NCBI GenBank assembly: GCA_963718745.1
Contig: OY970370.1
Span: 992,001-1,056,000, forward strand
Source: Fermentibacter sp963718745 [NCBI: Candidatus Fermentibacterota bacterium]
GTDB lineage: Bacteria > Fermentibacterota > Fermentibacteria > Fermentibacterales
Length of the DNA stretch: 64,000 bases
Direction of reading: 5' to 3'
Shown here: positions 24,913 through 40,465 of the stretch, piece after piece
Layout of the letters: every line of letters begins with the position of its first letter
Position numbering within the stretch: position 1 is the stretch's first letter
The notes under the pieces: model-generated
Told to the model about the DNA's origin: nothing
The model's database searches: none
Seen by the model: the letters and a program-made list of their open reading frames with translations, nothing else
Translations under genes and position numbers: made by a program

Positions 24913-25368
24913 CTAGTCGAACTCTTCAGCGTTGAACATCACGCTGTAGAGCTCTTCGTACCGGAGCGCGTTGAACAGCTCGACCATCGCACCCATCGGC
25001 ACGCGCTGGTCGACGTTGAACACGATCACGTCCACGGACTTGTTCTGCTCGCGCCAGATGCGCTCGCTCAGGGTACGGAGCTGCTGGGGGACGTCGTGGA
25101 CCGGCATGTCGAAGTCGCCAATCCGCGCGACTATCTCGCTCTGGGGGTCCCCCGGGGTGATCTGCTTGATCCACACCCTGAGGGTGAGCGACTGCTTCCC
25201 CAGCTCCGACATCACCTCGGGATGGGCCTGCGGGAAGCGTATGCTCATCCCCCCCTCCTCCTTGAAGAGGGTGGTGCTCATGAAGAAGATGATCAGGATG
25301 AAGACGAGGTCGGCGGAAGTGCCCGTGTAGACCTTCGCCGCAGCTCTTATGCGTCGCTTGATCAGCAT
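24913..25368 (-). CDS. exbD: ExbD/TolR-family biopolymer transport protein (first)
   Basis: 151 residues. The N-terminal cytoplasmic segment is followed by the single span SADLVFILIIFFMSTTLF, which holds the proton-path Asp after TGTSA, then a periplasmic domain ending with the typical VDVIVFNVDQRVPMGAMVEL segment. Its ATG overlaps the stop of the second ExbD gene (TGATG). It is part of the ExbB-ExbD-ExbD-TonB set. Confidence 0.88.
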   Translation of the reverse strand: MLIKRRIRAAAKVYTGTSADLVFILIIFFMSTTLFKEEGGMSIRFPQAHPEVMSELGKQSLTLRVWIKQITPGDPQSEIVARIGDFDMPVHDVPQQLRTLSERIWREQNKSVDVIVFNVDQRVPMGAMVELFNALRYEELYSVMFNAEEFD

Positions 25369-26117: not shown

Positions 26118-26128
26118 CCGATCTCCTT

Positions 26129-26947
26129 CTAGAGCTTCTTGAGCAGTTCCATGTCAGAGAGTGTATCGATGAGGAAGCTGCTGGCCTCCTCCATGTCGAC
26201 AACGTACCTGCCTATCAGGGAGACGTACCAGTTGTACGCGAGCTGGACCGGGATGGCGATTATCAGACCGGCTGCGGTCGTGATGAGGGCCTCCTGGATA
26301 CCGCTGGCGACGAGGCTGGCCTCGACGTTCTTGGCCGCGGCGATCGCGCCGAAGGCGTTGATCATGCCCGAGACCGTGCCGAGGAAGCCGAGCATCGGGG
26401 CCACCACCACGACGGATGCCATGATGATCAGACCCTTCTCGAGGAAGGACATCTCGACCTGGGCAGCCGTCTCGATACCCTTCTCGACGGCCTCCAGGCC
26501 CTTGTCGCGCCGGAGCAGGCCGGCCCTCAGTATGGATGCGACGGGGCCGCGTGTGCGGTCGCAGAGTTCCTCGGCGCCCTTGTGATCGCCCTTGCGGATG
26601 TATCCGCCGAGCTGATCGAGCAGGGTGCCCTGGTTTATCTTGCACTTGCGAAGGGTGATGAACCTCTCGATCCCCACCGCGACGCCGATGATCGCGCTGA
26701 GGAGCAGAGGCCACATGAAGATGCCGCCCGCGATGAACAGGTCCTTGAGGTCCATCGCTGCGTTCTGCGGCCTTTCTATGTCTTCACCCTCCGGCGCTTC
26801 GACGGCGTCCGCCGGAGGAGTCACTGGCTCTACTGGTTCCTCGACCTGTGTCGTGGTGTCGACGGGGGCCGGCGCGGTCGTATCTGCCGGTGCCTGTGCC
26901 CAGGAAGCAGCAGCCAGCATGAGGACTGCCAAGAGAATGTTACGCAT
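26129..26947 (-). CDS. exbB: MotA/TolQ/ExbB proton channel protein
   Basis: 272 residues. A cleavable signal peptide (ILLAVLMLAAASWAQA) and a Pro/Thr/Glu linker of about 50 residues precede the channel, an arrangement common in FCB-group ExbB. Three membrane spans follow (GGIFMWPLLLSAIIGVAVG; the pore helix MLGFLGTVSGMINAF; and ALITTAAGLIIAIPVQLAYN) with the family GTVxGM and TAAGL signatures. It powers the TonB receptor. The ATG is favoured over an upstream TTG by a GGAG 9 nt before it. Confidence 0.92.
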   Translation of the reverse strand: MRNILLAVLMLAAASWAQAPADTTAPAPVDTTTQVEEPVEPVTPPADAVEAPEGEDIERPQNAAMDLKDLFIAGGIFMWPLLLSAIIGVAVGIERFITLRKCKINQGTLLDQLGGYIRKGDHKGAEELCDRTRGPVASILRAGLLRRDKGLEAVEKGIETAAQVEMSFLEKGLIIMASVVVVAPMLGFLGTVSGMINAFGAIAAAKNVEASLVASGIQEALITTAAGLIIAIPVQLAYNWYVSLIGRYVVDMEEASSFLIDTLSDMELLKKL

Positions 26948-26973
26948 GAGGAACAACTCCTTGTGGCTCGGTT

Positions 26974-26999
26974 GGGGCGGCCCCCCGCGGGGCCGCCCC
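26974..26999 (-). terminator. GC-rich hairpin between the TonB receptor and exbB
   Basis: Perfect 11-bp stem GGGGCGGCCCC/GGGGCCGCCCC with a 4-nt loop and no T tract. ExbB has little room for its own promoter behind it, so the hairpin probably causes partial termination or protects the receptor message, giving less exbB than receptor transcript. Confidence 0.5.
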
Positions 27000-27022
27000 G
27001 ATGATTTCTATGACTTCCTAAC

Positions 27023-29716
27023 CTACCACTCCAGCCCGAATCCGAACCTGATCATCCTGGGGCGTGAGTAGACGTACGGGTCGTGCAGCGAACCGCCCGG
27101 ATCGTGATCGGGCCTGCCATCGCCGTCCTGGTCCGCATCGTACCAGGCTATGTCGCTGATGGTGGTGATGTTCCTGCGATCGAACACGTTGAGCACCCAG
27201 CAGTAGACATCGAGCGTCAGAGGGCCGGCCCATATGGTGCGGTTGACTCTGACGTCGGTATCCAGCGTCCAGGGGTAGCGGTGACCGTTGATCTGAGGAG
27301 AGGCCGTTCCCTGGCTGGACTGGGTGTAGGGGAACCCGGAACCGTAGTTGAAGACGACCGAAGTGCCGAAGCCTTCGAGAATCGGGTAGTCGCCGATCCT
27401 GGGGCCTTCGCCCTGGGGGATCCTGAAGTCGAGGTCGGCGTTGAAGGAGTGCCTCTGGTCCCAGTCCAGGTAGGACTCGCGCTTGGGGACGACCCAGCCG
27501 GACCAGAGATAGGAGTAGTTCTGGGTCGCGCCGGAGGACTTGCCCTTCGCGACCTGGTAGGTGTAGCTGGCGCTGGCCGAGAAGAAGCCTGTGGGACGGC
27601 GCATGAGAGTGAACTCCGCTCCGCGGACGTTTCCGAAGTCGCCGTTGATGAAACGATCGTAGGAGTCGACTGCGCTGTAGAAGTTCTTCTCGGTGTCGAC
27701 GAGACCCGTGATGTCCTTGTAGAAGCCGGTGACGTCCAGCAGCGTGTAGTCGTCGAACTGGTGCTTGACGCCGACTTCGTAGGCTATCGTCTGCTCGGGT
27801 TCGAGGTCGACGTTGCCGATCAGCGGGAAGGCGCCTGACAGGTCATAGGAGGAGCCGTTGTAGAGCCTGTCGAGCATGGGCATCTGGAAGTAGTGGCCGT
27901 ACGTGAAGTGCAGCACGTCGCGTTCGGTGATGGGGTGGGAGAAGCCGACGCGCGGGCTGAGATGGTATTTCATCGGCACTTCGATGGGGTTGATGATGTG
28001 ATCCGGGTCGCCCGGGGTGGTGCCGGGCATGACGGGGTTGGACGGATCAGCCGGATACTCGTCGAAGTTGGGATCGAAGTAGTCGAACCTGATACCGGCA
28101 TTCACGACCATGCCGCGGTATTCCATCTTGTCCTGGAAGTAGACCGCGCCGGAGTTGGGGAAGGCGTGGTAGCGGTTGAGGTAGATGTTACCGCCCGAGG
28201 CGGTGTCCACGCTGTAGTCGAACACATCGTAGTAGCGGCCTTCGAGGCCCGCCTTGAGCTGGTGCTGCTGGTTGACCTGGCTCGTTATGTCGAAGCGCAT
28301 CGATGCCGTCGCGCTCCGGGTGTCGCCCCAGGCCATCCTGCTTGCGCCATCGCGGTAGAAGCCGTCGGGGTCGATGGTCCTGGAAGGCGTGTAGGCAAGC
28401 CAGTCCTCGGGGGTCCAGTCCTCGCCCAGCCAGGACATGTCGCTATTGCGGATCTTGTAGCTGAACTCGGAAACGTACTGGTTGACCTTGAGCTCCATGA
28501 AGGTCGCGTCGCTCAGGGTCTGGGTCAGGCCCACGCCATAGCTTGTGTTCAGCCAGAAGCGGGTCGGGAGGCCGAACCTGATGTCCTCGCCACAGGTCGT
28601 GTCGCCCTCGGCGATGTAGGGAGTCTCGAACCTGCTCCAGGCCCAGTCCGACCAGCCGCCGGTCCTGTCCATCACGTACCCGGTGAAGTTGATCTTTGTG
28701 CGGGGGGTGGGTCTGATGGTCAGCTTGGCGTTGCCGGAGAGCTGGGTCGACCAGCCGTTGAACTGGTACTGGTAGCGGTTTTCCTCGCCACCGCCGATCT
28801 CGAGGAACTCTCCGGAGAGGAAGAGCCTCACGTCGCCGGGAACGCGGACGCCCATCGCGGGTAGAAGGTAGCTGGTGATGGGCTCGGGGCCGCCGATCGC
28901 GGCCTCGGCGTTGAGCCGGGCTTCGGAGAAGGGGCCCGCGTCGCCGCGGTTGGACTGCCAGGTCCAGTCGTCGGCTGCGCCGAGCGCCTGCCAGTCGTTG
29001 CCGCTGACTTCGAGCTCACCCGTGTAGGAGTTGCCGCCTTCGCGGGTGATGATCTGGACGATGCCGGACTGCGCGTTGCCGTACTCGGCTCCGAAGCCGC
29101 CGGTCATGACCGAGGTCTCGGACACGGCGGACATCGGGATGTCCGAGTTGAAGGTGTTCGTGGTGGCATCCTGCTGAGCCACGCCGTCGACGAGGTACGC
29201 GACCTCGCCCGTGCGGCCGCCGCGCATGTGGAGACCGCCGCGGTCGGTGGCTCCGGCCTGGCGGTTGACGACATCCTGGATGCCGGCGACGGGCAGCGTC
29301 TTGATCTCGTCACGGCCCACGACATGCATCGAGGACGTTATGTCCCTGAGGATCATGCCGCGCTGGTCCGTGACCTGGATTACCGTGCTGCCGACCGTGG
29401 TGATGTTCAGGACGAAGTCCATCCGCGTGGTGAGGTCGGCGCTGACCGAGACGCCGTTGGCCGTGGAGCTCGCCATGCCGACCATGTTGGCGGCGAGGTT
29501 GTAGCTCCCGGGCTCGAGGTTGATGATGAAGAACTCTCCGTTGGCGTCCGTCATCGCGCCGAACGAGGTTCCGACGATCATGACCGTTGCGCCGATGAGA
29601 GGATTGCCGGAAGTGTCAGTGACCCTCCCTGCAATCTTGCCGGTGGTACCTGCGCCGGCGACCAGCGCGAGGCACAGGACCAGAGCGGCGGTTATAGCCG
29701 TAGCCCTTCCTAGCAC
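27023..29716 (-). CDS. TonB-dependent receptor with carboxypeptidase-regulatory domain
   Basis: Outer-membrane active transporter of 897 residues. A signal peptide (AITAALVLCLALVAGAG) is followed by a carboxypeptidase-regulatory-like beta-sandwich (GKIAGRVTDTSGNPLIGATV, about residues 26-110). The plug follows (DEIKTLPVAGIQDVVNRQAG, LHMRGGRTGEVAYLVDGV, GGFGAEYGNAQSGIVQI), and then a 22-strand-type barrel ends in a C-terminal aromatic (FGFGLEW). The substrate is unknown; the domain order is that of SusC/CirA-like and FCB receptors. The start is a GTG with AAAGGAG upstream; a GTG at 29788 is an alternative. Two tiny ORFs overlap each other and this start. Confidence 0.88.
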   Translation of the reverse strand: MLGRATAITAALVLCLALVAGAGTTGKIAGRVTDTSGNPLIGATVMIVGTSFGAMTDANGEFFIINLEPGSYNLAANMVGMASSTANGVSVSADLTTRMDFVLNITTVGSTVIQVTDQRGMILRDITSSMHVVGRDEIKTLPVAGIQDVVNRQAGATDRGGLHMRGGRTGEVAYLVDGVAQQDATTNTFNSDIPMSAVSETSVMTGGFGAEYGNAQSGIVQIITREGGNSYTGELEVSGNDWQALGAADDWTWQSNRGDAGPFSEARLNAEAAIGGPEPITSYLLPAMGVRVPGDVRLFLSGEFLEIGGGEENRYQYQFNGWSTQLSGNAKLTIRPTPRTKINFTGYVMDRTGGWSDWAWSRFETPYIAEGDTTCGEDIRFGLPTRFWLNTSYGVGLTQTLSDATFMELKVNQYVSEFSYKIRNSDMSWLGEDWTPEDWLAYTPSRTIDPDGFYRDGASRMAWGDTRSATASMRFDITSQVNQQHQLKAGLEGRYYDVFDYSVDTASGGNIYLNRYHAFPNSGAVYFQDKMEYRGMVVNAGIRFDYFDPNFDEYPADPSNPVMPGTTPGDPDHIINPIEVPMKYHLSPRVGFSHPITERDVLHFTYGHYFQMPMLDRLYNGSSYDLSGAFPLIGNVDLEPEQTIAYEVGVKHQFDDYTLLDVTGFYKDITGLVDTEKNFYSAVDSYDRFINGDFGNVRGAEFTLMRRPTGFFSASASYTYQVAKGKSSGATQNYSYLWSGWVVPKRESYLDWDQRHSFNADLDFRIPQGEGPRIGDYPILEGFGTSVVFNYGSGFPYTQSSQGTASPQINGHRYPWTLDTDVRVNRTIWAGPLTLDVYCWVLNVFDRRNITTISDIAWYDADQDGDGRPDHDPGGSLHDPYVYSRPRMIRFGFGLEW

Positions 29717-29763
29717 CGTGTACGCTCCTTTCCTTTCTTGGGAGACGTTGCTCTTTCCTTCAT
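29710..29763 (-). CDS. candidate 17-residue leader ORF 2 upstream of the TonB receptor
   Basis: Encodes MKERATSPKKGKERTRC, strongly basic. Its ATG overlaps the stop of leader ORF 1 (AATGA) and its TAG stop overlaps the receptor's GTG start (GTGCTAG). Too short for coding statistics; the support is the overlap geometry alone. Confidence 0.35.
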   Translation of the reverse strand: MKERATSPKKGKERTRC

Positions 29764-29816
29764 TCCTCACGTCCGGCGCTCCCTTCACCCCCTGAGATGA
29801 ACCGCCGGACCCACAT
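29760..29816 (-). CDS. candidate 18-residue leader ORF 1 upstream of the TonB receptor
   Basis: Encodes MWVRRFISGGEGSAGREE. AAGGAG lies 6 nt before its ATG, an ideal ribosome-binding site, and it begins about 70 nt after the predicted transcription start. It ends in an overlap with leader ORF 2. Confidence 0.4.
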   Translation of the reverse strand: MWVRRFISGGEGSAGREE

Positions 29817-29895
29817 ACGTAACTCCTTGTTCTATTGCCCCGTAACGTCCGTCCTCCGAAGGGCGGACTTCACCTGTATTCCCTCTCTGAAAGCG

Positions 29896-29924
29896 AGAAT
29901 ACCCGCGGTTCCGACGCGTGTCAA
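29896..29924 (-). promoter_or_regulatory. consensus promoter of the TonB receptor-exbB-exbD-tonB cluster
   Basis: Minus-strand TTGACA, 17-nt spacer, TATTCT. The predicted leader to the receptor start is about 170 nt. It contains a small hairpin with a CTTCGG loop (around 29850-29872) and the two leader ORFs. No known riboswitch fold was recognised. Confidence 0.65.
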
Positions 29925-29945
29925 GCATTCCGGGGAGCCTCGTTT

Positions 29946-30602
29946 TCACCCGTTCAGACCCAGCAGGACGGGGATCGTCGGAAGCCATTCGAAGAGCAGG
30001 AACTGGGCCTGCCCGATGAGGAGGCTGATCCTCGCCATCACCGTGTAGCCGAAGCTCGCTCCGAAGGCGACCATGAGTATCGTGATCCCCACGTTGGCGG
30101 CCCCCCCGACAACGCCTCTGTGGGCCTTGGAGAAGAAGAAGTAGACGAGTCCGCAGACGACTCCCACGACGAGGACGAGGTTGTTCAGGAAGCCGGCCGT
30201 ACCTATTCCGGAGAGGGGCACGATGGTCCCCTCGACCTGGCTCAGGCAGTTCGTCTGCAGCGTGCTTACGAGCCCGAGACCCGCCCCGGTGCCGACTATC
30301 ATCGCGAGCGCGAGCCTGGAGAGGCCTGCGACCCTGGGGACCAGCCTCGCCAGCATGAACAGTGCGAAGACTCCGGGGATGATCATGAAGAGGTCCGGAG
30401 TCCCGTCGCCTGCGCCTGTGATCTCGTTCCAGAAGTTGGGGATGAGCACGTTGAAGATGGTGTAGATGAGCCAGTAGCCGGCACTCATGCCGACGAAGAG
30501 GTGCTCCGCGAACTTGTAGAAAGGATTGTCCTTGTACAGGAAGCTGTAGAGCATCAGCGTGAGCAATGCTCCGAGCCAGATCCCGGCAGTCTCCCAGTTC
30601 AC
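29946..30602 (-). CDS. membrane protein of the GlmL-associated cluster (about 6 spans)
   Basis: 218 residues, nearly all hydrophobic, with about six membrane spans. Examples are WLGALLTLMLYSFLY, LFMIIPGVFALFMLARLV, FLNNLVLVVGVVCGLVYFFF and VGITILMVAFGASFGYTVM. A conserved-looking DNPFYKFAEHLFVGMSAGYWL segment follows the first span. No family name is recognised. The GTG start overlaps the upstream gene as GTGA. Being the last gene of a run of four coupled membrane-protein genes, it is probably a subunit of one complex with them. Confidence 0.75.
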   Translation of the reverse strand: MNWETAGIWLGALLTLMLYSFLYKDNPFYKFAEHLFVGMSAGYWLIYTIFNVLIPNFWNEITGAGDGTPDLFMIIPGVFALFMLARLVPRVAGLSRLALAMIVGTGAGLGLVSTLQTNCLSQVEGTIVPLSGIGTAGFLNNLVLVVGVVCGLVYFFFSKAHRGVVGGAANVGITILMVAFGASFGYTVMARISLLIGQAQFLLFEWLPTIPVLLGLNG

Positions 30603-31459
30603 CTGGCCGCCCCCTTCCTGCCCTTGTGGACGGTGAGGTACGTGATGTTCCCCAGGACGATGAAGAACATTATCACGAGGTGGGCAATGGACTGCGCAGC
30701 CATGCCCGGCGTCGCCGTTCCCGGCGGAGCGCCCACGGTGCCTTCCCTGACCATGGTCTCATAGTCGGCGGCACCCTTGAGACCGCCGAGCAGGCCGACC
30801 ATCTGCCCCGCACCGAGGTAGGGGTAGAACTCGGGCGCGCTGACGGCCGTGCAGCCGCCTCCCACGGGCACGCCGAACCTGTCGCCCGCCATCATCACCC
30901 AGGCATGGATGCCGGGGTCGCCTGCGGAGAGGCTGATCACAAGGTCGATGTCGCGAAGGCTCTGGATCCTCCGCAGCATGGGGATGGAGTCGTACGACAC
31001 CCCGTCCCGGTCCTGGGGGAACACGGCCTGTATCGAGCTGCCCATCCTGACGACGGACACCCCTGCGCCAACAGTGTATCCGAGGTTCACCCAGTCGCCG
31101 TACTGCTCCTTGCCGAGGCTGTCTCCGACCGACGTCAGCACTTCCTGGCAGAGGCTCGCTCCCTGGGGCCAGAGAGCCGTCGCTATCACCTTGTGGCCGT
31201 TGGTGAAGAGGTGCTGGGACATGGCGACGGCCATGGGCTGGAGTTCGGGCATGGTCGAAGGATCGTAGTCGAAGCTCACGAGCACGACCGATCCCTCCGG
31301 AAGGGAGTCGACGAAATCGAACATGTGCCGGCTCGGTCCGGTGCCAACCGGTATGGGGAAGTCGAGTCTGAACGCGAGAGGGACGAACACGGAGAGCGCC
31401 ATCAGGACGTAGATGACCCTCCTGTCGACCCTGTCCAGCCTTTCGAGAAACTTCCTCAT
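30599..31459 (-). CDS. membrane-anchored protein of the GlmL-associated cluster
   Basis: 286 residues. An N-terminal span (VIYVLMALSVFVPLAFRL) and a C-terminal span (IAHLVIMFFIVLGNITYLTV) bracket a domain of about 200 residues. That domain has an alpha/beta texture (GSVVLVSFDYDPSTMPELQPMA as its first strand-helix; DIDLVISLSAGDPGIHAWVMM). It contains no motif I recognise; a GATase- or Rossmann-like fold is possible. If both spans are real, the domain is on the outer side. The ATG has GGAGG 6 nt upstream and overlaps the preceding stop (ATGA). Confidence 0.75.
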   Translation of the reverse strand: MRKFLERLDRVDRRVIYVLMALSVFVPLAFRLDFPIPVGTGPSRHMFDFVDSLPEGSVVLVSFDYDPSTMPELQPMAVAMSQHLFTNGHKVIATALWPQGASLCQEVLTSVGDSLGKEQYGDWVNLGYTVGAGVSVVRMGSSIQAVFPQDRDGVSYDSIPMLRRIQSLRDIDLVISLSAGDPGIHAWVMMAGDRFGVPVGGGCTAVSAPEFYPYLGAGQMVGLLGGLKGAADYETMVREGTVGAPPGTATPGMAAQSIAHLVIMFFIVLGNITYLTVHKGRKGAAR

Positions 31460-32115
31460 TCGGCACCTCCGAGATAGCTCCGCTCGATCCCGAAGATCAT
31501 GCGGAGCGAGGTTGCCACCACTCCGAGCGCGGCTCCTATCATCACTGCCCTCTGTCCGGCCATGTTCGGCACCTGCATCAGCCATTCGGCGACATCGGAG
31601 ACCAGGCTGGGATGGGCGCCTTCGGCCGCTCCCGGGATGAGCCTCCAGATCAGATCGCCAATCGGGACCCGGCCGAGCATGACGATGAAGGCCGACACGA
31701 GCAGCAGCGTCGCCCTCCAGTTGGACGAGCGGAAGGCCCTGAACGCGGCCGAGGCCACGAAGAAGGCCAGCAGGCTGAACATCGTGGCGCCCATCGGCAC
31801 CACCATGTTCTGGAACATGAAGTCGAAGGGTCTCGCCTCCTCGACCCCGTAGACGACTCCGGTCCCCACCATCGCGAAGAAGCCTGCCAGCACCACGGGG
31901 CTGTACTGCCAGTTCTTCGACTTGTTCGAGATCTTCATCAGGTGGACCTGCACGAGGTTGACCACTCCGAGGAAGATGGCGGCGGATGCGACTATCATGT
32001 ACCAGTCCGTGAGCCCCTCGCCCATCGTGGATATGGGTGCATGAGGTATGAAGAAGTGCAGGATCATCAGGATCCCGCAGAGGAAGGTAACCAGAAGCGG
32101 CAGAAAGAGCCTCAT
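31456..32115 (-). CDS. membrane protein of the GlmL-associated cluster (about 6 spans)
   Basis: 219 residues with about six hydrophobic spans, including LFLPLLVTFLCGILMILHFFIP, WYMIVASAAIFLGVVNLVQVHL and MFSLLAFFVASAAFRAF. A short polar loop NKSKNWQYS follows the second. No family assignment. GGAGGGG precedes the ATG, and the stop overlaps the next gene of the cluster. Coupled gene order suggests a fixed stoichiometry with its neighbours. Confidence 0.75.
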   Translation of the reverse strand: MRLFLPLLVTFLCGILMILHFFIPHAPISTMGEGLTDWYMIVASAAIFLGVVNLVQVHLMKISNKSKNWQYSPVVLAGFFAMVGTGVVYGVEEARPFDFMFQNMVVPMGATMFSLLAFFVASAAFRAFRSSNWRATLLLVSAFIVMLGRVPIGDLIWRLIPGAAEGAHPSLVSDVAEWLMQVPNMAGQRAVMIGAALGVVATSLRMIFGIERSYLGGAE

Positions 32116-32126
32116 ATCACCCCTCC

Positions 32127-33365
32127 CTACTCGACATGGCAGAGGAACCGGATGAAGCCTGCCACCCTGCCGGCGGGCTCCCACCAGTTCCCGGCCGTGG
32201 CCGCGAGGACCCCGACGACTATCAGGATCATTATCACCAGTTTGGCCGCATCCTGACCCTTCAGGCTCCCGAGCAGCTTGGGCTCCCGGGAGAGGTAGGC
32301 GCTGGCCGCGAAGAGCTCCTCGCCTATGAGGGTGTAGTCGCATGCGGCGATGAAGAAGGGCAGCTGGCTGACCATGGCGGTGCCTGCGATCTGTATGGCG
32401 CCTACGCTCTTGCCTGTCTCGGCAAGGATGAGGCTCTCGGCGTAGAACGTACCGAGCAGGAAGATGGCGGCAGGCCTCTGGCGGACCATGATCCCGTCGA
32501 CTCCCGCCGCGTATCCGAACTGGTCGTCGGTGAGGTAGTTGATGTTCTCGCGTCGGAAGGCGTCGGGCCGGCCGACCTGGAGGTAGGCCTCCTTCACGAC
32601 TTCCTGGGCAACGCTCATCACCACGCTGCGGGTGTTCGGAACCAGCAGGTTGGCGCCGTACTCGGCCGTCTTGGCGGCGACCCTGCCCAGAATCACCATG
32701 CTAGCTATCGTCTGGATGTCGTCCATGTCCATGATGCCAGGGATGTAGAGTACGGGGCGTCCCATCTCGGTAGCCCGTCCGACGGCGTCCTCCACCGCCG
32801 AGAGGCCGGCGATCTCCCTGATGAACAGCGGCCTGCCCCTTTTGCCCCTCTCGATGTACCAGAAGATGACAAGCGCGAGCAGGACGGTTATCACGAACAT
32901 CCCGACCCTGCCACCGTGGAACCACTGTGCCTCCGGGATGCCCCGGGCCTCCGCGCTCCGGCCGGCCGGGAATCCCCCGTACCAGGCCTCCAGGATGAAG
33001 GAGTAGGTCGAACCGTTCTCGAGTCCGCTCACGGTGAACGAGTCGGTCCCGGGGAGGATCCAGCCCTCCTCGTACTCCCCGCCTCCCTCCATCCGCACGA
33101 GCACACGGATGGAATCGGGCTGGACGCCGGCTTCGGCCATCGTCCAGTACAGGTCGAGAACTCCGCCTCCGTCGTTCGGGGCGTCGGCCGCCTCGAGCGA
33201 TACGAATGCGGCGATCCCCGGGGGGGCGGCCGCAATCGCTGAGTCGGGCTCCGACAGGACCTGCGCAGGTGGTGCATCCGTGGAATCCGGCGCCGGACCC
33301 GTCGTCTGGGCCGCGGCAACGGATGCCAGAAGCAACAGCGCAGGACAGAAGAGGTACAGCTTCAT
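32127..33365 (-). CDS. DUF6754-like membrane protein with fibronectin-type domain
   Basis: 412 residues. A signal peptide (LYLFCPALLLLASVAAAQ) is followed by a linker and a fibronectin III-like domain (about residues 50-140; LDLYWTMAEAGVQPDSIRVLV, YSFILEAWYGG). Next is a membrane span (VGMFVITVLLALVIFWYIERG) and a cytoplasmic alpha/beta domain (AEMGRPVLYIPG is here TEMGRPVLYIPG; FGYAAGVDGIMVRQRP; ESLILAETGKSVGAIQIAGT). A C-terminal span closes the protein. The last domain resembles what is catalogued as DUF6754, from memory and not verified. Start chosen at the ATG 6 nt after GGGAGG. Confidence 0.72.
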   Translation of the reverse strand: MKLYLFCPALLLLASVAAAQTTGPAPDSTDAPPAQVLSEPDSAIAAAPPGIAAFVSLEAADAPNDGGGVLDLYWTMAEAGVQPDSIRVLVRMEGGGEYEEGWILPGTDSFTVSGLENGSTYSFILEAWYGGFPAGRSAEARGIPEAQWFHGGRVGMFVITVLLALVIFWYIERGKRGRPLFIREIAGLSAVEDAVGRATEMGRPVLYIPGIMDMDDIQTIASMVILGRVAAKTAEYGANLLVPNTRSVVMSVAQEVVKEAYLQVGRPDAFRRENINYLTDDQFGYAAGVDGIMVRQRPAAIFLLGTFYAESLILAETGKSVGAIQIAGTAMVSQLPFFIAACDYTLIGEELFAASAYLSREPKLLGSLKGQDAAKLVIMILIVVGVLAATAGNWWEPAGRVAGFIRFLCHVE

Positions 33366-33411
33366 GCGCATCCTCCCATCCTGCAATGCGGAGCGATATC
33401 CGCGAATGCGG

Positions 33412-33437
33412 GGAAGGGGAGCCTTCGCCCCCCTTCC
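33412..33437 (-). terminator. hairpin between the barrel-sandwich gene and the DUF6754-like gene
   Basis: 8-bp stem GGAAGGGG/CCCCTTCC around a 10-nt loop, in a 104-nt intergenic gap. No T run. It may divide the cluster into two transcriptional parts. Confidence 0.45.
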
Positions 33438-33469
33438 GAAAACCTTCCGTCGCCGGGACGGTACATCCT

Positions 33470-34591
33470 CTATTCCTCTATCAGTTCGACATTCGCCCTG
33501 GGAACGATCGCCCTGGACGAGTCTCCGAACTCCACCTCCAGGACTCGCACCTTCGCCTCGGTCTCCAGGAGCTGGAGTTCCGCCGGGAGGGCCGTGACCC
33601 TTCCGAGCCTGCCGAAGTAGGGGGCACGGATGACTCGTATGGGCGAACCAACGTCGAGGGCGCCCTGCTCCCGGCCCTCGTCCCGTCCCTTCATCGCAGC
33701 CTCGACAGGGATGACCACTTCAGGCCTGATCACCCCGGCGCGGATCTGGGTGGCGCCGTTTATGCTCGCGAGCATCCCCTCGCGGCTGCAGAGAAGGTCG
33801 AAGGTGCCTCGGGCCATGTGCATCCTGCCGAAGCCCTCGGTGAGGATGAGAGTGATGCCCTTGTTCTCGTGGCCCGTGATGGCCACTCCGAGGTCGTATC
33901 CGAGGAAGTCCTTGAGATCCCTGTCGTCGAAGCCGCCGGTGACTATGCCCTTCACGCCGGCCGACACCGCCTTCCTGAGCGTGGCGTGGCTGACGAAAGA
34001 TCCTCCTATCAGGATCTTGCCGGCGCAGGATGCATCTATCAGGTCGGCCGTCAGCTCCTGTTCAGGTGACTTTACAGCCTTCCGGATCTCTCCCCTCGTC
34101 TCGCCGCCGATCCCGAAGATGCCCTGGACGAATGTGGCACGGGTCTCGATTATGACTCCCTCGTCCTCGATGATCCCGACAACCCTGCCCTTCACGTAGG
34201 CTTCGATGGTGACGGGCGAGGGGGGCTCCCTGAGGACCGCCTGCCCCGTCACCTTGTTGAAGCTCTCGAATGTTCCCTCGATCGGTGACCTGACCGTGTT
34301 CCTGAAGAGCCCGAAGATCCCCTTCGACTGCGCGATCGTATCCTCGACCGCCAGGGGATCCCCCTCCTTCTTCAGCAGGAGCGTGGGGATGTCCTCGGGC
34401 GGCACTCCCAGGATGTTCGCCAGGTTGATCATCTTGACGTTGCCCGGAAGCTCGGTGCGCGCGACCACGGTATCCGCCGAGACCTCGTCGCCGATCTTCG
34501 CCAGGACTCTCCCCTTGAGCGGGAGGCGGCGCTCCTTGCGGATGACCGCCACATCGGCCACGCGGAGACCGGGGGTGTATGCGAAAGCCAT
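33470..34591 (-). CDS. barrel-sandwich and KOW-like domain protein of the GlmL cluster
   Basis: 373 soluble residues. The N-terminal 165 residues show repeated short beta hairpins of the biotinyl/lipoyl or RnfC-type barrel-sandwich kind (LKGRVLAKIGDEVSADTVVART, VRSPIEGTFESFNKVTGQAVL, VKGRVVGIIEDEGVIIETRA are the spans). A central alpha/beta part follows (IDASCAGKILIGGSFVSHATLRKAVSAG region). The C-terminus is KOW-like (GSPIRVIRAPYFGRLGRVTAL, VEFGDSSRAIVPRANVELI). No known enzyme is recognised. It lies 3 nt after the GlmL-type ATPase gene with GGAGGTAGGAG before its ATG, so the two are almost certainly co-translated partners. Confidence 0.75.
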   Translation of the reverse strand: MAFAYTPGLRVADVAVIRKERRLPLKGRVLAKIGDEVSADTVVARTELPGNVKMINLANILGVPPEDIPTLLLKKEGDPLAVEDTIAQSKGIFGLFRNTVRSPIEGTFESFNKVTGQAVLREPPSPVTIEAYVKGRVVGIIEDEGVIIETRATFVQGIFGIGGETRGEIRKAVKSPEQELTADLIDASCAGKILIGGSFVSHATLRKAVSAGVKGIVTGGFDDRDLKDFLGYDLGVAITGHENKGITLILTEGFGRMHMARGTFDLLCSREGMLASINGATQIRAGVIRPEVVIPVEAAMKGRDEGREQGALDVGSPIRVIRAPYFGRLGRVTALPAELQLLETEAKVRVLEVEFGDSSRAIVPRANVELIEE

Positions 34592-34594
34592 CTC

Positions 34595-36463
34595 CTACCT
34601 CCCCAGGGAAAGGAACTTGTCAGGATAGGCGGTAAGAGCCATGGCCCACTCCTGCAGTTTCTTGACTCTCTCGGAATCGCCCGAGGGCAGCACGAAGGGT
34701 CTTCCCCTGCCGTCGAGCACGATTCCGACCACTCCGCCTTCGAGGTCCGTCTCCAGGACCTTCCCGGGACCAGCGCCCACGTCGAAGTTCTTCGCAGGCC
34801 TGATGACGCTCCTGGCCTTCTCTCCCACACCGAGGGGGATCACCTGCATCCGGCCGAACTCGATCGACACCTCCCGGGTCTTGCCGTCGGGCATGTGCAT
34901 CGAGATCGACGCGACCTGGGAGCCATCCTTGCCAAGCCCGGAAGGGGCGACGCAGGAACCGAGCCTGATCAGACAGTCCTTGTCGAAGACTTCGGTTGCG
35001 GCCCGGGGTAGAACCTCCGAGAGGACACCGAGCTGAGGCATCATGAATATCGAATCCACCGAGAGCATCGTGACGCCCTCCGGCACGAAGGAGTCAATGA
35101 GCATGAGAGCGGCCTGGCTCCGCCTGGGTGCGTGCGAAAGCACTCCGCCAGATCCGATCAGCAGGTCGAGCGCCATCATGTTCACGAGCGTCGCCCCGGT
35201 CTGCGTCTGGTCGAAGGCGTCGCCGATGGTCCGCTCCTGCGCCACTCCCTTGAGGCCGACGGCCAGGTCCCTGTGCTGGACGAGGGCCAGCCTCAGCGCC
35301 TCCCTGGCTATGGCCTGCTCGATGATGAGCTCCTCGAGAGTCTGGGGGACGGTGGTGGGCCGGATCATCTTGTTCCTGATCCTGTTGCGGAGGTCCGCCT
35401 CGTCCATCCTGAACGGCACCCACCGCATCACATTGTCGAGCCCTGCGCTGGCGAGTACGTTGGAGACGCTGTAGCTCATGCCGAGGTTGGCGGACACCGT
35501 GCGGTTGAACACGGGCTGTCCCTCGCAGTCGAAGACGGAGAACACGTCGGTGGTCGCGCCTCCGATGTCGACGCCCATCACATGGATGTTCTCGGCCTTC
35601 GCGACCATCTCGATCAGCTTGCCTACCGCGCCCGGCGTGGGCATTATGGGGACGTTCTCCCAGTCGTTGCCCACGTAGTGCCCCGCCCACTGCATCAGCC
35701 TGCCGTATCCGGGGGCCTGGGCCATCACGTGCTCCATGAACAGCTCGTGTATCGTATCACGCGCCGGGCTGAGGTTCTCCTTCTCGAGGACGGGCCTGAT
35801 GTTGGGCACGACCTTGAGGGCGGCTATCTCTCCCAGCTCGTTGCTGACTTCGTCCGCTGCGTCGCAGTTGCCCGCGAAGATCACGGGGAGCTTGTACCCG
35901 ACCCCGAAGCGGGGCTTGGGATCCGCGGCCCTGATGACCTGGGCCAGCTCCACGACGTGATCCACCGTTCCTCCGTCGATGCCGCCGGAGAGAAGGATCA
36001 TGTCGGGGCGGAGGCGCCTTATGTCTGCGACCTTCTCGTGGAAGAGCCGCCCGTCGTTCGATGCGACGACGTCCATCACGATGGCTCCGGCACCCAGAGC
36101 GGCCCTCTGGGCGCTCTCGCCCGTCATGCTCTTCACGACGCCGGCCACGGTCATCTGGAGCCCGCCGCCCGCCGAGGAGGTGGACATGTAGATGTCGACA
36201 CCCCTCGTGGGGTCGTCCCCGACGAAGATGCCTTCCTTGTCGTCGGTCAGGAACTGCCGCGACAGCAGGTCCTCGATCTCGCCGACGGCGTTGAGCACGC
36301 CCTTGGTGACGTCCTCTGCGGGAGCCTCCACCGTCGTGGGCGCCTCCCCGCGCGTGATGAGCCGATACTCGCCATCGCGCTTCTCGATGAGGATCGCCTT
36401 GGTGGTCGTACTACCGCAGTCGGTCGCCAGTATCCTCGTTATTTCCTTGTCGGCCAACGCCAT
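34595..36463 (-). CDS. GlmL/MutL-family ASKHA ATPase
   Basis: 622 residues of the glutamate mutase L family (actin/Hsp70/sugar-kinase fold). The phosphate-1 loop is ILATDCGSTTTKAILIE near the N-terminus, and the second nucleotide loop is VMGVDIGGATTDVFSVF around residue 300. Other signatures are STSSAGGGLQMTVAGVV and LLSGGIDGGTVDHV. In clostridia GlmL lies between the two subunits of B12-dependent glutamate mutase, possibly as a reactivase. Here no mutase subunit is nearby, and the gene leads a set of membrane proteins, so its partner is probably different. ATG with GGGAG just upstream. Confidence 0.88.
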   Translation of the reverse strand: MALADKEITRILATDCGSTTTKAILIEKRDGEYRLITRGEAPTTVEAPAEDVTKGVLNAVGEIEDLLSRQFLTDDKEGIFVGDDPTRGVDIYMSTSSAGGGLQMTVAGVVKSMTGESAQRAALGAGAIVMDVVASNDGRLFHEKVADIRRLRPDMILLSGGIDGGTVDHVVELAQVIRAADPKPRFGVGYKLPVIFAGNCDAADEVSNELGEIAALKVVPNIRPVLEKENLSPARDTIHELFMEHVMAQAPGYGRLMQWAGHYVGNDWENVPIMPTPGAVGKLIEMVAKAENIHVMGVDIGGATTDVFSVFDCEGQPVFNRTVSANLGMSYSVSNVLASAGLDNVMRWVPFRMDEADLRNRIRNKMIRPTTVPQTLEELIIEQAIAREALRLALVQHRDLAVGLKGVAQERTIGDAFDQTQTGATLVNMMALDLLIGSGGVLSHAPRRSQAALMLIDSFVPEGVTMLSVDSIFMMPQLGVLSEVLPRAATEVFDKDCLIRLGSCVAPSGLGKDGSQVASISMHMPDGKTREVSIEFGRMQVIPLGVGEKARSVIRPAKNFDVGAGPGKVLETDLEGGVVGIVLDGRGRPFVLPSGDSERVKKLQEWAMALTAYPDKFLSLGR

Positions 36464-36863
36464 CTCCCTTCGGATCCCCGCGGACTCCGCGGCGGAGCCA
36501 TGCAAAGAAACCCTGCCTCCGGGGACGGGCGGCCTTCTCGGCGGCCCTTGCACCGGCTTCGCGGGCGTTCTCGTCTTCGATCGCGCAAATCAGCTTCTCG
36601 ACGTTCTCACGGTCCTCGATCATCCTGACGAACTTCTGGTAGTCCTTCGAGTCGATCACCAGGGTCACCATGGGATCCATGAATATCAGCATCTGGTTGC
36701 CCAGGAACGAAAGCGGCTTGACCGATTCGAGGAACATGACCGCAGGCACGGTCATCTGGCGCTCGACGACCTTCCTCGCGATCTTCGCCGAGAGCTCGCT
36801 GAAGTCCTCTGCCACGCCCTCAGGCGGGAGGCTTTCCCACGTACCGGTCTCTGATAAACGCAA
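36411..36863 (-). CDS. small conserved-looking protein upstream of the GlmL-type ATPase
   Basis: 150 residues. The core (about residues 20-105) is a helix-rich module, DFSELSAKIARKVVERQMTVPAVMFLES, then LIFMDPMVTLVIDSKDYQKFVRMIEDRENVEKLI. The last 40 residues are Arg/Gly-rich and overlap the ATPase start by 53 nt. The predicted start is a TTG with GGAGG 6 nt upstream, inside the previous gene; a GTG at 36815 just after that gene's stop is an alternative. Function unknown. Always-coupled position before the ATPase suggests an accessory role. Confidence 0.65.
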   Translation of the reverse strand: MRLSETGTWESLPPEGVAEDFSELSAKIARKVVERQMTVPAVMFLESVKPLSFLGNQMLIFMDPMVTLVIDSKDYQKFVRMIEDRENVEKLICAIEDENAREAGARAAEKAARPRRQGFFAWLRRGVRGDPKGDGVGRQGNNEDTGDRLR

Positions 36864-37230
36864 CTACTTCCTCCCGGTTTCCGGAAGAGAACTGTACCGA
36901 GAGCCCCCTGAACTTCGCAAGGGGCGTGGGAGCCGGGAAGGGGCTCAGGAGCGCCCCCCTGGAGTCGGTGGTGATGCTCCTCACCTCTCTCCAGGTGCGT
37001 TTCTCGACTCCGAAGAGGGATTTCTTCTCCACTCCGGACTCGTCCATGCGGAATCGCACCGGGAGAAAGAAGCTCCACATGGCCAGGAAGAGAAGGCAGA
37101 AACCCACCAGCCCCCACCAGGGCCCGTTCCCGTACCAGCCCGCGAAGATGGAGGCAACGATCATTATAACGATGAGGACGGCAGCGGCCAGGGGACGTTC
37201 CCTGGCCGGGTGCGCCGTCCATTCGAGCAT
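36820..37230 (-). CDS. small membrane protein with PH-like domain
   Basis: 136 residues. After MLEWTAHPARERP come two adjacent membrane spans (LAAAVLIVIMIVASIFAGW and GLVGFCLLFLAMWSFFLPV). Then a beta-rich domain (VRFRMDESGVEKKSLFGVEKRTW as the first strands, FRGLSVQFSSGNREEVVAFI as the last) matches bacterial PH/YdbS-like membrane proteins. The start is placed at an internal ATG, which avoids overlap with gcvPB; an ATG ten codons upstream is possible. Function unknown. It sits between the glycine cleavage operon and the GlmL cluster. Confidence 0.68.
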   Translation of the reverse strand: MLEWTAHPARERPLAAAVLIVIMIVASIFAGWYGNGPWWGLVGFCLLFLAMWSFFLPVRFRMDESGVEKKSLFGVEKRTWREVRSITTDSRGALLSPFPAPTPLAKFRGLSVQFSSGNREEVVAFIRDRYVGKPPA

Positions 37231-37244
37231 TCCGGGCGCCCCTG

Positions 37245-38702
37245 CTACGGGGTCTCCCATTTTTCCACGATCTCGAGTTCCTTGACTGCCCTGACCTCGT
37301 CCAGCCTCAGCACCGGAGTGTTCACCGGGGCGTCGGTCACGAGATGGGGCTTCTCGACGACCTCACGTGCGATGGAGAGCATCGCCCCGGCGAAGGCGTC
37401 CAGGGACTCCAGGCTCTCCGTCTCGGTTGGCTCGATCATCATCGACTCGTGCACGATCATCGGGAAGTACACGGTGGGAGCATGGAACCCATAGTCCAGA
37501 AGCCTCTTGGCCATGTCCAGGGTCCTGACCCCGGCCTTCGCCTGCCTCTCGCCGGAGATGACGAACTCGTGCATGCACGGACCGTTGTCGTAGGGGATGT
37601 CGAAGGTCCCGCCGAGGAGCGTCTTGAGGTAGTTGGCGTTGAGGAGGGCCGTCTCGGAGGCCTCTCTGAGCCCTGCCGCCCCGAGGGTCCTGATGTAGGC
37701 CCACGCACGCACCAGCACGCCGAAGTGGCCATGAAACGCCAGGAGTCTGCCGAAGGAATCCTTGTCGGCTGTCATCCGTGCGGTGCCGTCGGGCGACCTC
37801 CCCACCACCGGATCGGGCAGGTACTTCGCGAGGAAGTCCCTGCATGCGACCGGGCCGGAACCAGGGCCGCCGCCGCCGTGGGGCGTCGAGAAGGTCTTGT
37901 GCAGATTCAGGTGGCAGACGTCGAAACCCATGTCGCCCGGGCGCGCTATTCCGAGCAGGGCGTTCATGTTCGCCCCGTCCATGTAGCAGAGCCCTCCGGC
38001 TTCGTGGACTATCCTTGTTATCTCGTCGATCCCCGATTCGAAGATGCCGAGGGTGTTCGGGTTGGTGAGCATGAGACCCGCGGTGGCGGGGCCGGCCTTG
38101 GCTCTGAGGTCGTCGATGTCCACTTCGCCGCGGGAGTTCGATCCGACGTTGACGGTCCGGAATCCCGCCAGGGTGCACGAGGCCGGGTTCGTTCCGTGCG
38201 CGGAGTCGGGCATCAGTATCTCTACCCTGCCGGTGTCCCCGCGTTCGAGGTGGTAGTGGCGGATCAGGAGGAGGCCGGTCAGCTCGCCGTGCGCGCCGGC
38301 CGCGGGCTGGAGCGAGACGCCTTCGAATCCGGTTATCTCGCAGAGGAAGGATCCGAGCCGGCACATCAGCTCCAGGGCGCCTTCGCAGAGATCCGCGGGC
38401 GCCAGGGGGTGCAGGGACGCGAAGCCTGACAGCCTGGCCAGGTCCTCGTTCAGCTTCGGGTTGTACTTCATGGTGCACGAGCCCAGAGGATACATGCCCT
38501 TGTCCAGATGGTAGTTCTTCGTGCTCAGGTTGACGAAGTGCCTCACCACCTGAGTCTCGCTCACCTCGGGAAGGCCGACGGGGCCGCTCCTCAGGGCATC
38601 CTGACCGAAGACCGCAGCCGGATCGGCCGCGGGCACGTCGAGCTCCGGAAGGTCGATCCCCCTCCTGCCGCAGCAGCTCTCGAGAAAAATGGTGCCCTCC
38701 AT
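37245..38702 (-). CDS. gcvPB: glycine dehydrogenase (decarboxylating) subunit 2
   Basis: PLP-binding C-terminal half of the split P-protein. It decarboxylates glycine and loads the aminomethyl group onto lipoyl-GcvH together with GcvPA. The PLP lysine motif is NLHKTFSTPHGGGGPGSGP (about residues 270-290). Other signatures are LSTKNYHLDKGMYPLGSCTMKYNP in its N-terminal part and MDGANMNALLGIARPGDMG. 485 residues. It starts at ATG overlapping the gcvPA stop (TGATG); GTG one codon earlier is possible. Last gene of the gcvT-H-PA-PB operon. Confidence 0.96.
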   Translation of the reverse strand: MEGTIFLESCCGRRGIDLPELDVPAADPAAVFGQDALRSGPVGLPEVSETQVVRHFVNLSTKNYHLDKGMYPLGSCTMKYNPKLNEDLARLSGFASLHPLAPADLCEGALELMCRLGSFLCEITGFEGVSLQPAAGAHGELTGLLLIRHYHLERGDTGRVEILMPDSAHGTNPASCTLAGFRTVNVGSNSRGEVDIDDLRAKAGPATAGLMLTNPNTLGIFESGIDEITRIVHEAGGLCYMDGANMNALLGIARPGDMGFDVCHLNLHKTFSTPHGGGGPGSGPVACRDFLAKYLPDPVVGRSPDGTARMTADKDSFGRLLAFHGHFGVLVRAWAYIRTLGAAGLREASETALLNANYLKTLLGGTFDIPYDNGPCMHEFVISGERQAKAGVRTLDMAKRLLDYGFHAPTVYFPMIVHESMMIEPTETESLESLDAFAGAMLSIAREVVEKPHLVTDAPVNTPVLRLDEVRAVKELEIVEKWETP

Positions 38703-40045
38703 CACTCCACCCCCCCGCAGATCCGCGCGATCGTGTCGCGCAATCCGTCCATCTCGGCCCTGGTCCTCTTCTCGGTGACCGCTGTCAGGAGCGCCCCGGC
38801 GCCGAGCGCGGGGACGGGGACGCCGGCGAGGTAACCCTTGTCGGCAGCCTTCCGCACGATCAGCCCGGCATCGACCGGGTACTCCAGGACGAACTCACGG
38901 AACGAAGGGGCGCCGAAGACCTTCCGCACGCCGGGGATCCCGGTCAGGGCGTCCTCGAGATAGGCGGCCTTAGAGAGACACTGGAGGGATATCTCCCTGA
39001 ATCCGCTCTCGCCGGCCAACGAGAGATAGACGGTGTTGGCCAGGGCCATCAGAGCTTCGTTGGAGCAGATGTTGCTCGTGGCCTTCTCGCGCCTTATGTG
39101 CTGCTCCCGTGTCTGGAGGGTCAGCACGTAGCCGGTCTGCCCGGCCTTGTCCAGGGTGCGGCCTATGATGCGGCCGGGCATGTTGCGCACGAGCTCCCTG
39201 CGGCATGCCATGAATCCGACATAGGGGCCGCCGAAGGAGAGCGGGACTCCCATGCTCTGGCCCTCGCCCACCGCGATGTCGGCACCGGCGGCTCCGGGGG
39301 ATTCCAGTACGGCCATCGCCACGGGGTCCGCCACAACGACAAGGAGTGCGCCCGCTGAATGAGCCATCCCGGCGGCAGCCCGGACATCCTGCACCACTCC
39401 GTGGAAATCGGGCTGCTGGATCATGAGGGCGGCTGCGTCGACTACGAGTCTGCCTGCGGCCTCGATGTCGATCGAGCCGTCGGCGCTCCAGGGTACGACG
39501 TCCATGCCGAAGCCGCCCTGGGCCAGATAGGTCCGGATGACTTCGAGGTAGCGCGGGTTGAGGGAGCCCGAAACGGCCACGCGGTTGCGCCTGGTGGCGC
39601 GCATGGCCATTAGGGCCGCCTCGGCTGCCGCGCTCGCGCCGTCGTACATCGAGGCGTTCGCGCAGTCCAGGCCGGAGAGTCTGGCCATCAGCGTCTGATA
39701 TTCGAAAATGCACTGGAGCGTCCCCTGGCTGACCTCGGCCTGGTAGGGCGTATAGGCCGTGTAGAACTCGCTCCTCAGGAGGATGTGGTCGACGACGGCG
39801 GGGATGAAGTGGTCATAGGCGCCTGCACCTGCGAAACAGACGAGGCCCGCCGCCCGGTTGGACCCGGCCAGCTCCCGCGCCTCGCGCACGAGCTCGAGCT
39901 CGCTCGCAGCTGCGGGAAGATCCAGGGGGCGCGTCATCCTCCTGTCCGCGGGGACTGCCGCGACCAGGTCGTCGATGCTGCGGGCTCCCACGGTATCCAG
40001 CATCCGGCGCCTGTCGGCGCCGAGTATCGAGGTGAATCTGCTCAT
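38702..40045 (-). CDS. gcvPA: glycine dehydrogenase (decarboxylating) subunit 1
   Basis: N-terminal half of the split P-protein, an aminotransferase-fold partner of GcvPB. Typical segments are FLGAGAYDHF here read as FAGAGAYDHFIPAVVDHIL, YTPYQAEVSQGTLQCIFEYQ and GLDCANASMYDGASAAAEAA, with ICSNEALMALANTVYLS in the C-terminal part. 447 residues, the expected size. GGAG precedes the ATG, 8 nt after the gcvH stop. No PLP lysine is expected in this subunit. Confidence 0.95.
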   Translation of the reverse strand: MSRFTSILGADRRRMLDTVGARSIDDLVAAVPADRRMTRPLDLPAAASELELVREARELAGSNRAAGLVCFAGAGAYDHFIPAVVDHILLRSEFYTAYTPYQAEVSQGTLQCIFEYQTLMARLSGLDCANASMYDGASAAAEAALMAMRATRRNRVAVSGSLNPRYLEVIRTYLAQGGFGMDVVPWSADGSIDIEAAGRLVVDAAALMIQQPDFHGVVQDVRAAAGMAHSAGALLVVVADPVAMAVLESPGAAGADIAVGEGQSMGVPLSFGGPYVGFMACRRELVRNMPGRIIGRTLDKAGQTGYVLTLQTREQHIRREKATSNICSNEALMALANTVYLSLAGESGFREISLQCLSKAAYLEDALTGIPGVRKVFGAPSFREFVLEYPVDAGLIVRKAADKGYLAGVPVPALGAGALLTAVTEKRTRAEMDGLRDTIARICGGVE

Positions 40046-40053
40046 CTGGATGC

Positions 40054-40440
40054 CTACTCTCCCGCAAGCTCCCTGTACTGCTCGGCGGAGAGCAGCCCGT
40101 CGAACTGCGAGGGGTTCGAGGGGTGGATGGTTACGAGCCAGCCCTGGCCGTAGCAGTCGGTGTTCACCAGACCCGGGTCGGATTCGAGTGCGACGTTGCC
40201 CGTGACGACCTTGCCGTCGACCGGCGAGAAGAAGTCCTCGGCGGTCTTCACGGCCTCGAGCACGCCCATGGCCTCACCGGTGCGAGCGTCGCGCCCGGCC
40301 GGGGGGAGCTCGACCATGACGATCTCGCCCATGAGACCCTGCGCGTGATCGGTGATGCCCATCGTCAGGTTCCCGTCGGCTCCGCGCCTGACCCACTCGT
40401 GGCTCTTCGTGTACCTGAGATCACCGGGAATGCTGCTCAT
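40054..40440 (-). CDS. gcvH: glycine cleavage system H protein
   Basis: Lipoyl carrier that shuttles the aminomethyl group between P, T and L proteins. 128 residues with YTKSHEWVR at 10-18, GITDHAQGLMGEIVMVELP, and the lipoyl-lysine site GVLEAVKTAEDFFSPVDG (Lys65), close to the usual ESVKA form. AAGGAGG lies 7 nt before the ATG; an open frame upstream is not conserved. The lipoamide dehydrogenase and lipoylation enzymes are not in this window. Confidence 0.96.
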   Translation of the reverse strand: MSSIPGDLRYTKSHEWVRRGADGNLTMGITDHAQGLMGEIVMVELPPAGRDARTGEAMGVLEAVKTAEDFFSPVDGKVVTGNVALESDPGLVNTDCYGQGWLVTIHPSNPSQFDGLLSAEQYRELAGE

Positions 40441-40465
40441 CCCTGGCCTCCTTCCTGATGCGCTG

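Follow-up and report, generated by a model that had tools for sequence, protein, structure and literature searches.

Organization of the gene block

In this study we analyzed a stretch of 64,000 nucleotides (nt) from Fermentibacter sp963718745, a member of the Fermentibacterota (contig OY970370.1, positions 992,001 to 1,056,000; called the window below, in whose numbering all positions are given). On its minus strand, running from 37260 to 29946, lies a block of eight genes in the order PHm, hel, MutL-long, BSH, DUF6754, M5, M6 and M7, in which an ASKHA ATPase is encoded together with a set of membrane proteins. Across several deep-branching phyla of bacteria this system is retained or lost as a set, which makes it a target in the search for a new cell-envelope function. 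The short names PHm, hel, BSH, M5, M6 and M7 were coined in this analysis, and the features are as follows.

36820 to 37260, minus strand: PHm, small membrane protein, accessory (open reading frame with homologs at related loci)
36411 to 36815, minus strand: hel, small helical protein (alignment of 24 sequences)
34595 to 36463, minus strand: MutL-long, ASKHA ATPase (PF13941 and ATP-site motifs)
33470 to 34591, minus strand: BSH, putative barrel-sandwich hybrid/KOW protein (alignment; weak family matches among homologs)
33412 to 33437, minus strand: hairpin in the 104-nt gap between BSH and DUF6754 (folding)
32127 to 33365, minus strand: DUF6754 protein, with a signal-like N-terminus, an FN3 domain, a transmembrane helix, a conserved inner domain and another transmembrane helix (PF20539)
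31456 to 32115, minus strand: M5, polytopic membrane protein (alignment, hydropathy)
30599 to 31459, minus strand: M6, Rossmann-like alpha/beta domain between two transmembrane helices, predicted to be extracytoplasmic (model)
29946 to 30602, minus strand: M7, polytopic membrane protein (alignment; genome co-occurrence)

The genes are closely packed: hel and MutL-long overlap by 53 nt, MutL-long and BSH are separated by 3 nt and DUF6754 and M5 by 11 nt, and M5/M6 and M6/M7 each overlap by 4 nt, leaving one larger gap of 104 nt between BSH and DUF6754 if ATG 33365 is taken as the DUF6754 start. An earlier examination of the letters alone (the sequence-only reading) had reported seven of these genes, their tight junctions and the 104-nt gap with its hairpin; all of its genes were recovered as open reading frames at that place, and the junctions and the gap hold. 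Its upstream border does not, since the small membrane gene at 37260-36820 also belongs to the block, and hel, whose frame had been drawn from 36863, probably starts at GTG 36815, as judged by reading. The block genes are really coding: in comparison with Ca. Fermentibacter daniensis (L001; L numbers denote loci and G numbers genomes), dN/dS was 0.05-0.27 in seven genes, the value for M6 coming from 28 codons only and M7 lying past the end of L001. Scans for promoters and terminators across 29600-37400 gave sites no more numerous than in shuffles, and the Rfam scan of the window returned one tRNA and nothing else.

Only MutL-long (PF13941) and the DUF6754 protein (PF20539) gave Pfam matches above the cut-off in the block. 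PHm, presumably PH-like by our reading, had every Pfam and NCBIfam match below the cut-off; its homologs lie ahead of hel-MutL at L028 and the Fermentibacterota loci, and after M7 in L029. The open-licence literature of PubMed Central contained no paper naming DUF6754, PF20539 or PF13941, and wider literature searches found nothing on this gene set. The single families are already in databases, and the complete set corresponds to none of the known kinds that were tested.

Conservation and co-occurrence

A search with the DUF6754 protein yielded 49 loci, in 45 of which DUF6754, M5, M6 and M7 follow in this order (copies truncated at a contig end or carrying a frameshift, as in L023, are included); among the remaining four, the contig ends before M7 in L001, L007 and L022, and L048 is unclear. 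MutL-long is present at 32 of the 49 loci, with BSH next to it in 31, the other (L033) ending at the contig end. Two modular orders were found: Fermentibacterota and L028 begin with the MutL side, Riflebacteria-type loci and L029 with the membrane side. The recurrence of the set across phyla, raised by the sequence-only reading as a check, was indeed observed. The two modules stand 2.5-7 kb apart in L003, L009, L011, L017 and L047, and about 27 kb apart in G001. As regards assignment, L006 is titled an ANME archaeon and yet has Fermentibacterota genes and order, and the genome of L041, titled Methylomirabilis, was counted in the same phylum as the Riflebacteria genome G013. Taken together, there are two modules: one consists of hel, MutL-long and BSH, joined in some groups by PHm, and the other of DUF6754-M5-M6-M7.

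The five phyla reached through these loci were then surveyed. DUF6754 was detected in all 42 Fermentibacterota genomes (the phylum of L002, comprising the closest relatives of the window), in 113 of 120 genomes drawn from the larger phylum of L025 (titled Stahlbacteria), in 29 of 39 Riflebacteria (L030), in 41 of 149 drawn Planctomycetota (L048, by title) and in 4 of 146 genomes drawn from the phylum of L028 (titled Deltaproteobacteria), and in 0 of 14 control genomes. Because the family is near-universal in both the Fermentibacterota and the Stahlbacteria-titled phylum, a core function in the cell envelope is suggested.

For the other components, 55 genomes were chosen, favoring strong hits and long contigs; their completeness is not given, and single absences prove little. 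All 18 DUF6754-positive genomes of the Stahlbacteria/Coatesbacteria type had BSH (in two fragments in G180) and M7, and 16 had MutL-long. The 14 DUF6754-positive Planctomycetota (out of 41) had all three, whereas the 20 DUF6754-negative ones chosen (out of 108) had no BSH, no M7 and no full-length MutL-long (one partial match, in G217, reached 115 bits). The L028 phylum was represented by three of its four hits, with MutL-long in 2/3, BSH in 2/3 and M7 in 3/3, the exception being G393. Over all 149 Planctomycetota, 36 had both DUF6754 and BSH, 5 DUF6754 only (G221, G244, G257, G306, G352), 2 BSH only (G274, and G260 with a 29-bit fragment) and 106 neither. The two thus agree in 142 of 149 genomes (Fisher p 1.05e-26, not corrected for kinship), the two draws being taken as identical by genome handles, with negatives listed in part only. 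M7 lies megabases away from DUF6754 or on another contig in G312, G231, G344 and G294. Evolutionarily, the two modules act as a single functional unit. The proposal of the sequence-only reading that the ATPase is part of a multi-subunit membrane system is supported accordingly, its parts co-occurring across phyla even when unlinked; the transporter, energy-coupling complex and reactivating system which that reading had suggested are candidates for its role. The planctomycetes that carry the system in nearly single-contig genomes make the question testable.

Much of the synteny falls within phyla, which together with the uncorrected co-occurrence test would suit a chance operon or simple vertical inheritance with no shared function. 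Such an explanation is barely credible, because the joint presence and absence without linkage in Planctomycetota, the inversion of the modules between phyla and the MutL-BSH fusion described below all speak against it.

The MutL-family ATPase

MutL-long matches PF13941 over all 450 profile positions (1-450; E 1.1e-121, 407.2 bits, cut-off 27). The matched region covers residues 11-497 of 622, and about 125 residues follow, many of them at invariant positions. The ASKHA phosphate and adenosine motifs, which we take to form the ATP site of this family, are all three carried by the window protein, and across it and 32 long homologs DCGSTTTK and DIGGATTD are each kept in 32/33 and GSGG in 29/33. 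No solved-structure relative of MutL-long was found by sequence.

GlmL, a member of this family, is normally encoded between GlmS and GlmE of the B12-dependent glutamate mutase, and the sequence-only reading had spoken of a GlmL-type ATPase without a mutase. The family assignment stands and the type does not: MutL-long scores 220.4 bits against a cut-off of 475 for the NCBIfam GlmL equivalog, 166.6 bits against 204.05 for the GlmL family TIGR01319, and 206.0 bits against 600 for the equivalog of OR-4, the GlmL relative of ornithine degradation. In a FastTree phylogeny (midpoint-rooted, support values not inspected), 33 long and 5 fused MutL proteins group together, apart from 4 GlmE-linked and 6 OR-4-like copies. 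Although MutL-long shares the ASKHA family profile PF13941 with GlmL and OR-4, it measures 580-647 aa against 445-468 aa in the GlmE-linked and OR-4-like copies of Riflebacteria, to which it is 30-35% and 30-33% identical, respectively, over the aligned part; its branch also contains the MutL-BSH fusions, and no GlmE stands beside MutL-long.

The absence of glmE was assessed both in the window and in related genomes. With Riflebacteria GlmE and GlmL as probes (GlmS was no probe), the window yielded no GlmE and no second MutL. GlmE occurs in 4 of 20 related genomes, and in 4/4 it adjoins a different MutL, MutL-long standing on another contig; the check whether a glmE elsewhere might depend on this MutL thus came out in favor of an ATPase that does not belong to a glutamate mutase. 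Since it falls below the GlmL cut-off, forms a separate branch and leaves GlmE beside another MutL in all four cases, MutL-long is, by its sequence, a distinct, longer branch of the MutL family and not GlmL. The scores, the tree and the placement of GlmE likewise rule it out as the GlmL of a hidden glutamate mutase, glmS not having been searched. The family is named after an accessory protein of a B12 mutase, and yet MutL-long does not travel with the mutase.

BSH and its fusion to MutL

The window BSH has no Pfam match and, by sequence, no convincing solved-structure relative. At E values up to 1, the 22 members of its alignment match Biotin_lipoyl (17), RnfC_N (12) and KOW (3), and these weak yet repeated matches suggest a barrel-sandwich domain combined with KOW. 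Five proteins of 910-930 aa (L070, L072, two in L073, and L079) are made up of MutL in the first half and BSH in the second, as confirmed by Pfam for L070. These fusion copies stand in a paralogous system, those of L070, L072 and L073 coming from Fermentibacterota, and no other single clue points as strongly to the two proteins working as one. In L070, L072 and L074 we observed a second, paralogous DUF6754-M5-M6-M7 system with a lone extra DUF6754; in L070 and L072 the fusion gene lies between the paralogous module and the extra DUF6754, and none was seen in L074.

The putative barrel-sandwich hybrid domain would recall RnfC and NqrA, RnfC_N being weak in the 12 BSH proteins mentioned and just over the cut-off in the L070 fusion (26.2 bits, cut-off 25.6). 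In contrast to Rnf and Nqr, no membrane subunit family of these complexes is among the listed hits of M5, M6 and M7, as compared through sequence profiles (for M5, the best 25 of 32 families).

The membrane module

The DUF6754 protein is a clear member of PF20539, a family without described function (E 1.9e-121, 404.5 bits, cut-off 27, positions 2-249 of 257). In the structural model its FN3 domain occupies residues 55-154 (VIA Z 13.2, root-mean-square deviation (rmsd) 2.1, 95 aligned), and the positive-inside rule, applied to the charges flanking the helices, places FN3 outside and the conserved domain inside. This inner domain contains 72 of the 73 invariant columns among 37 sequences; the structure search of the protein was filled by FN3 hits.

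In M6, a Rossmann-like domain is modeled between two helices (predicted local distance difference test (pLDDT) 88.8), and the positive C-terminus puts it outside the cytoplasm by the same rule. Its best VIA match is MTH777 (1kjn; Z 9.9, rmsd 3.2, 139 aligned; next 8.7), a likeness of predicted fold only. M5 and M7 are polytopic by hydropathy. A weak TMD0_ABC match appeared in 7 of 31 M5 homologs (best 1.3e-5; 15.7 bits for the window M5, cut-off 27), and no consistent family emerged among the homologs of either M5 or M7; the window M5, M6 and M7 have no recognized family above the cut-off in Pfam or NCBIfam. By sequence, DUF6754 and M6 have no convincing solved-structure relatives. A similar order of helices and strands raised the idea of kinship between the inner domain of DUF6754 and the outer domain of M6, which profile comparison did not bear out (best probability 0.4-9%); a common origin of M5 and M7 found no support in the same kind of comparison, and M7 may contain a weak internal repeat (probability 14%). 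The planctomycete M5 (L196, 11512-13338; L199, 6761-8605) carries an inserted stretch of almost 400 residues in which no Pfam family exceeds the cut-off.

For the gap region in front of DUF6754 the folding energy is -54.2 kcal/mol (z -3.26), and the fold includes a hairpin of 11 bp (33437-33412). Among nine related loci folded, eight have a strong hairpin in the equivalent gap and L022 has none. Because it is present in 8/9 loci despite sequences that vary between groups, its position may be selected. The hairpin is possibly an attenuator or a 3' stabilizer, through which the ATPase module may be expressed at another level than the membrane module.

One ATPase and several membrane modules

The Stahlbacteria-type genomes have several membrane modules and usually one MutL-long and one BSH. 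Exactly one MutL-long was found in 15 of the 16 Stahlbacteria/Coatesbacteria-type genomes having it (two in G093), next to 2-6 M7 matches. G162, nearly one contig, encodes 6 DUF6754 and 6 M7 (one partial) with 1 MutL-long and 1 BSH; G188 encodes 7 DUF6754 and 5 M7, again with one of each; and L024 and L114 carry the membrane module in tandem triplicate. Since each genome combines a single, shared ATPase part in the cytosol with several membrane modules, the system is analogous to the ECF transporters, which possess a shared energizing module; it differs from them in that the ATPase is MutL/ASKHA and not ABC, and no ECF family is among the hits of the window proteins.

Proposed mechanism

Starting from the co-inherited unit, its modular build, the topology given by rule, the shared ATPase and the fusion, we favor, ahead of all others and at a probability of roughly 45%, a reading in which MutL-long would be an ATP-driven conformational switch. 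BSH would be its adaptor, given that the two can be one polypeptide, and both would dock from the cytosol on the inner domain of DUF6754. Nucleotide turnover there would open, load or assemble the inner-membrane complex of M5, M6 and M7, whose outer face would carry the FN3 domain and the Rossmann-like domain of M6. One shared cytosolic motor or loader may thereby serve several membrane modules that differ in envelope cargo, for which a lipid, a surface polymer, an ion or a protein would be candidates. The docking site, the direction of the conformational signal and the substrate are what we infer here. A bolder version, in which an ASKHA ATPase and a barrel-sandwich adaptor energize or load interchangeable DUF6754-M5-M6-M7 modules, each with its own substrate, as a new class of envelope machine, seems possible to us and is put forward tentatively; if it is true, no ASKHA protein known before would have driven a complex for transport or assembly at the membrane.

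Several points weigh against the switch. ATP hydrolysis, subunit contact and transport are putative; to our knowledge, ASKHA proteins act as chaperones, kinases, filaments and adaptors, and not one is known to drive a transporter in the membrane. Of the 33 long proteins, 4 have a changed GSGG adenosine motif. The inner domain of DUF6754 is modeled only in part, residues 295-378 falling below pLDDT 50. G009 and G010 have DUF6754, BSH and M7 without MutL (genome gaps are possible), the divergent system of G393 has hel, DUF6754, M5, M6 and M7 without MutL or BSH, and at L080, L084 and L085 DUF6754 stands in a stretch that has no M5-M7. Finally, the genomic neighbors point in several directions.

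The main rival holds that MutL-long is a reactivating or assembly chaperone for a membrane enzyme made of DUF6754, M5, M6 and M7, ATP serving to repair or load the complex and not to drive work. This would be the familiar behavior of ASKHA reactivases, the mutase relatives being thought to be reactivating or assembly chaperones, and a single ATPase for many paralogous membrane modules would fit it too. Scattered neighbors suggest cofactor-containing enzymes: HypA-HypB in L026 and L151, SelD and SelB, all of which we take as such by reading, and MoeA in L197 (by Pfam), L198, L084 and L085. Each of these, however, occurs in few genomes only, and no catalytic or cofactor-binding family is found above the cut-off in DUF6754, M5, M6 and M7 of the window, nor consistently among their homologs; we consider the chaperone a serious alternative, less likely than the switch.

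Neighboring genes

Envelope and lipid genes are frequent neighbors of the block, and no single partner is general; when 998 flanking open reading frames (the longest non-overlapping ones, taken without a gene finder) were clustered across groups, none emerged. In Stahlbacteria-type genomes, accA lies beside BSH and plsX-fabH beside MutL. Directly downstream in the window, at 24230-29788, lie genes for a TonB-dependent receptor, ExbB, two ExbD and TonB, an arrangement repeated in Fermentibacterota. ExbB is near the block in that phylum, in three Stahlbacteria-type loci and in one planctomycete (L025, L112, L119, L103), and the TonB receptor in Fermentibacterota, L113 and L162; the TonB-ExbB-ExbD probes found no match at the other loci, whose flanks are limited. 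Further neighbors are FtsY in L104 and L107 (further off in L151), and an M48 (HtpX-like) protease in L153, L164, L165 and L111; in Riflebacteria, BSH is followed by Wzz, and L113 has a polysaccharide-export protein. These envelope genes, each in its own group, would agree with a nucleotide-gated scaffold or signaling platform for envelope construction which, like the ASKHA adaptors of pili and secretion systems, moves nothing itself. Yet no partner is common to all groups, and most ATP-site residues are kept, which is not required of a mere scaffold; we regard it as improbable compared with the ATP-driven switch.

Directly upstream of the block in the window, at 37245-41566, stand genes named by reading as gcvT-gcvH-gcvPA-gcvPB, and the PHm gene overlaps the gcvPB stop. 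In 12 loci of Fermentibacterota and 11 of the Stahlbacteria type, gcvPB is found ahead of hel-MutL, at a distance of at most 5 kb and mostly adjoining it, with overlapping ends in the window, L076, L142 and L144. On this ground the block might be taken for an accessory of glycine cleavage in which MutL-long and hel serve GcvP. This is very improbable: the gcv probes gave no match next to the block in Riflebacteria, Planctomycetota or the L028 phylum, and those Stahlbacteria-type genomes encode BSH and the membrane module at other places, for example BSH beside accA.

Some minor observations may be added. DUF6754 genes without M5-M7 adjoin a moeA-like gene at L084 (1043-3084) and L085 (6069-8180), and M7 stands beside moeA in L197 and L198. 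At L109 (6186-11878) there is a divergent hel-DUF6754-M5-M6-M7 arrangement, with a DUF6754 protein of 1055 aa, in a genome without MutL-long or BSH matches, close to a gene that by reading is serine palmitoyltransferase-like. Beside the divergent G393 system lies a gene that we take, by reading, to be serine palmitoyltransferase-like; a link to sphingolipids was set aside, being confined to this one genome, whose M6 finds itself and three distant copies in 193 genomes. Elsewhere in the window, 15868-18504 and 21905-24151 encode large secreted-looking proteins, the second with no Pfam match, whose C-termini presumably resemble type IX-type C-terminal sorting domains, and the gene at 13559-14686 is, by our reading, REP-associated transposase-like.

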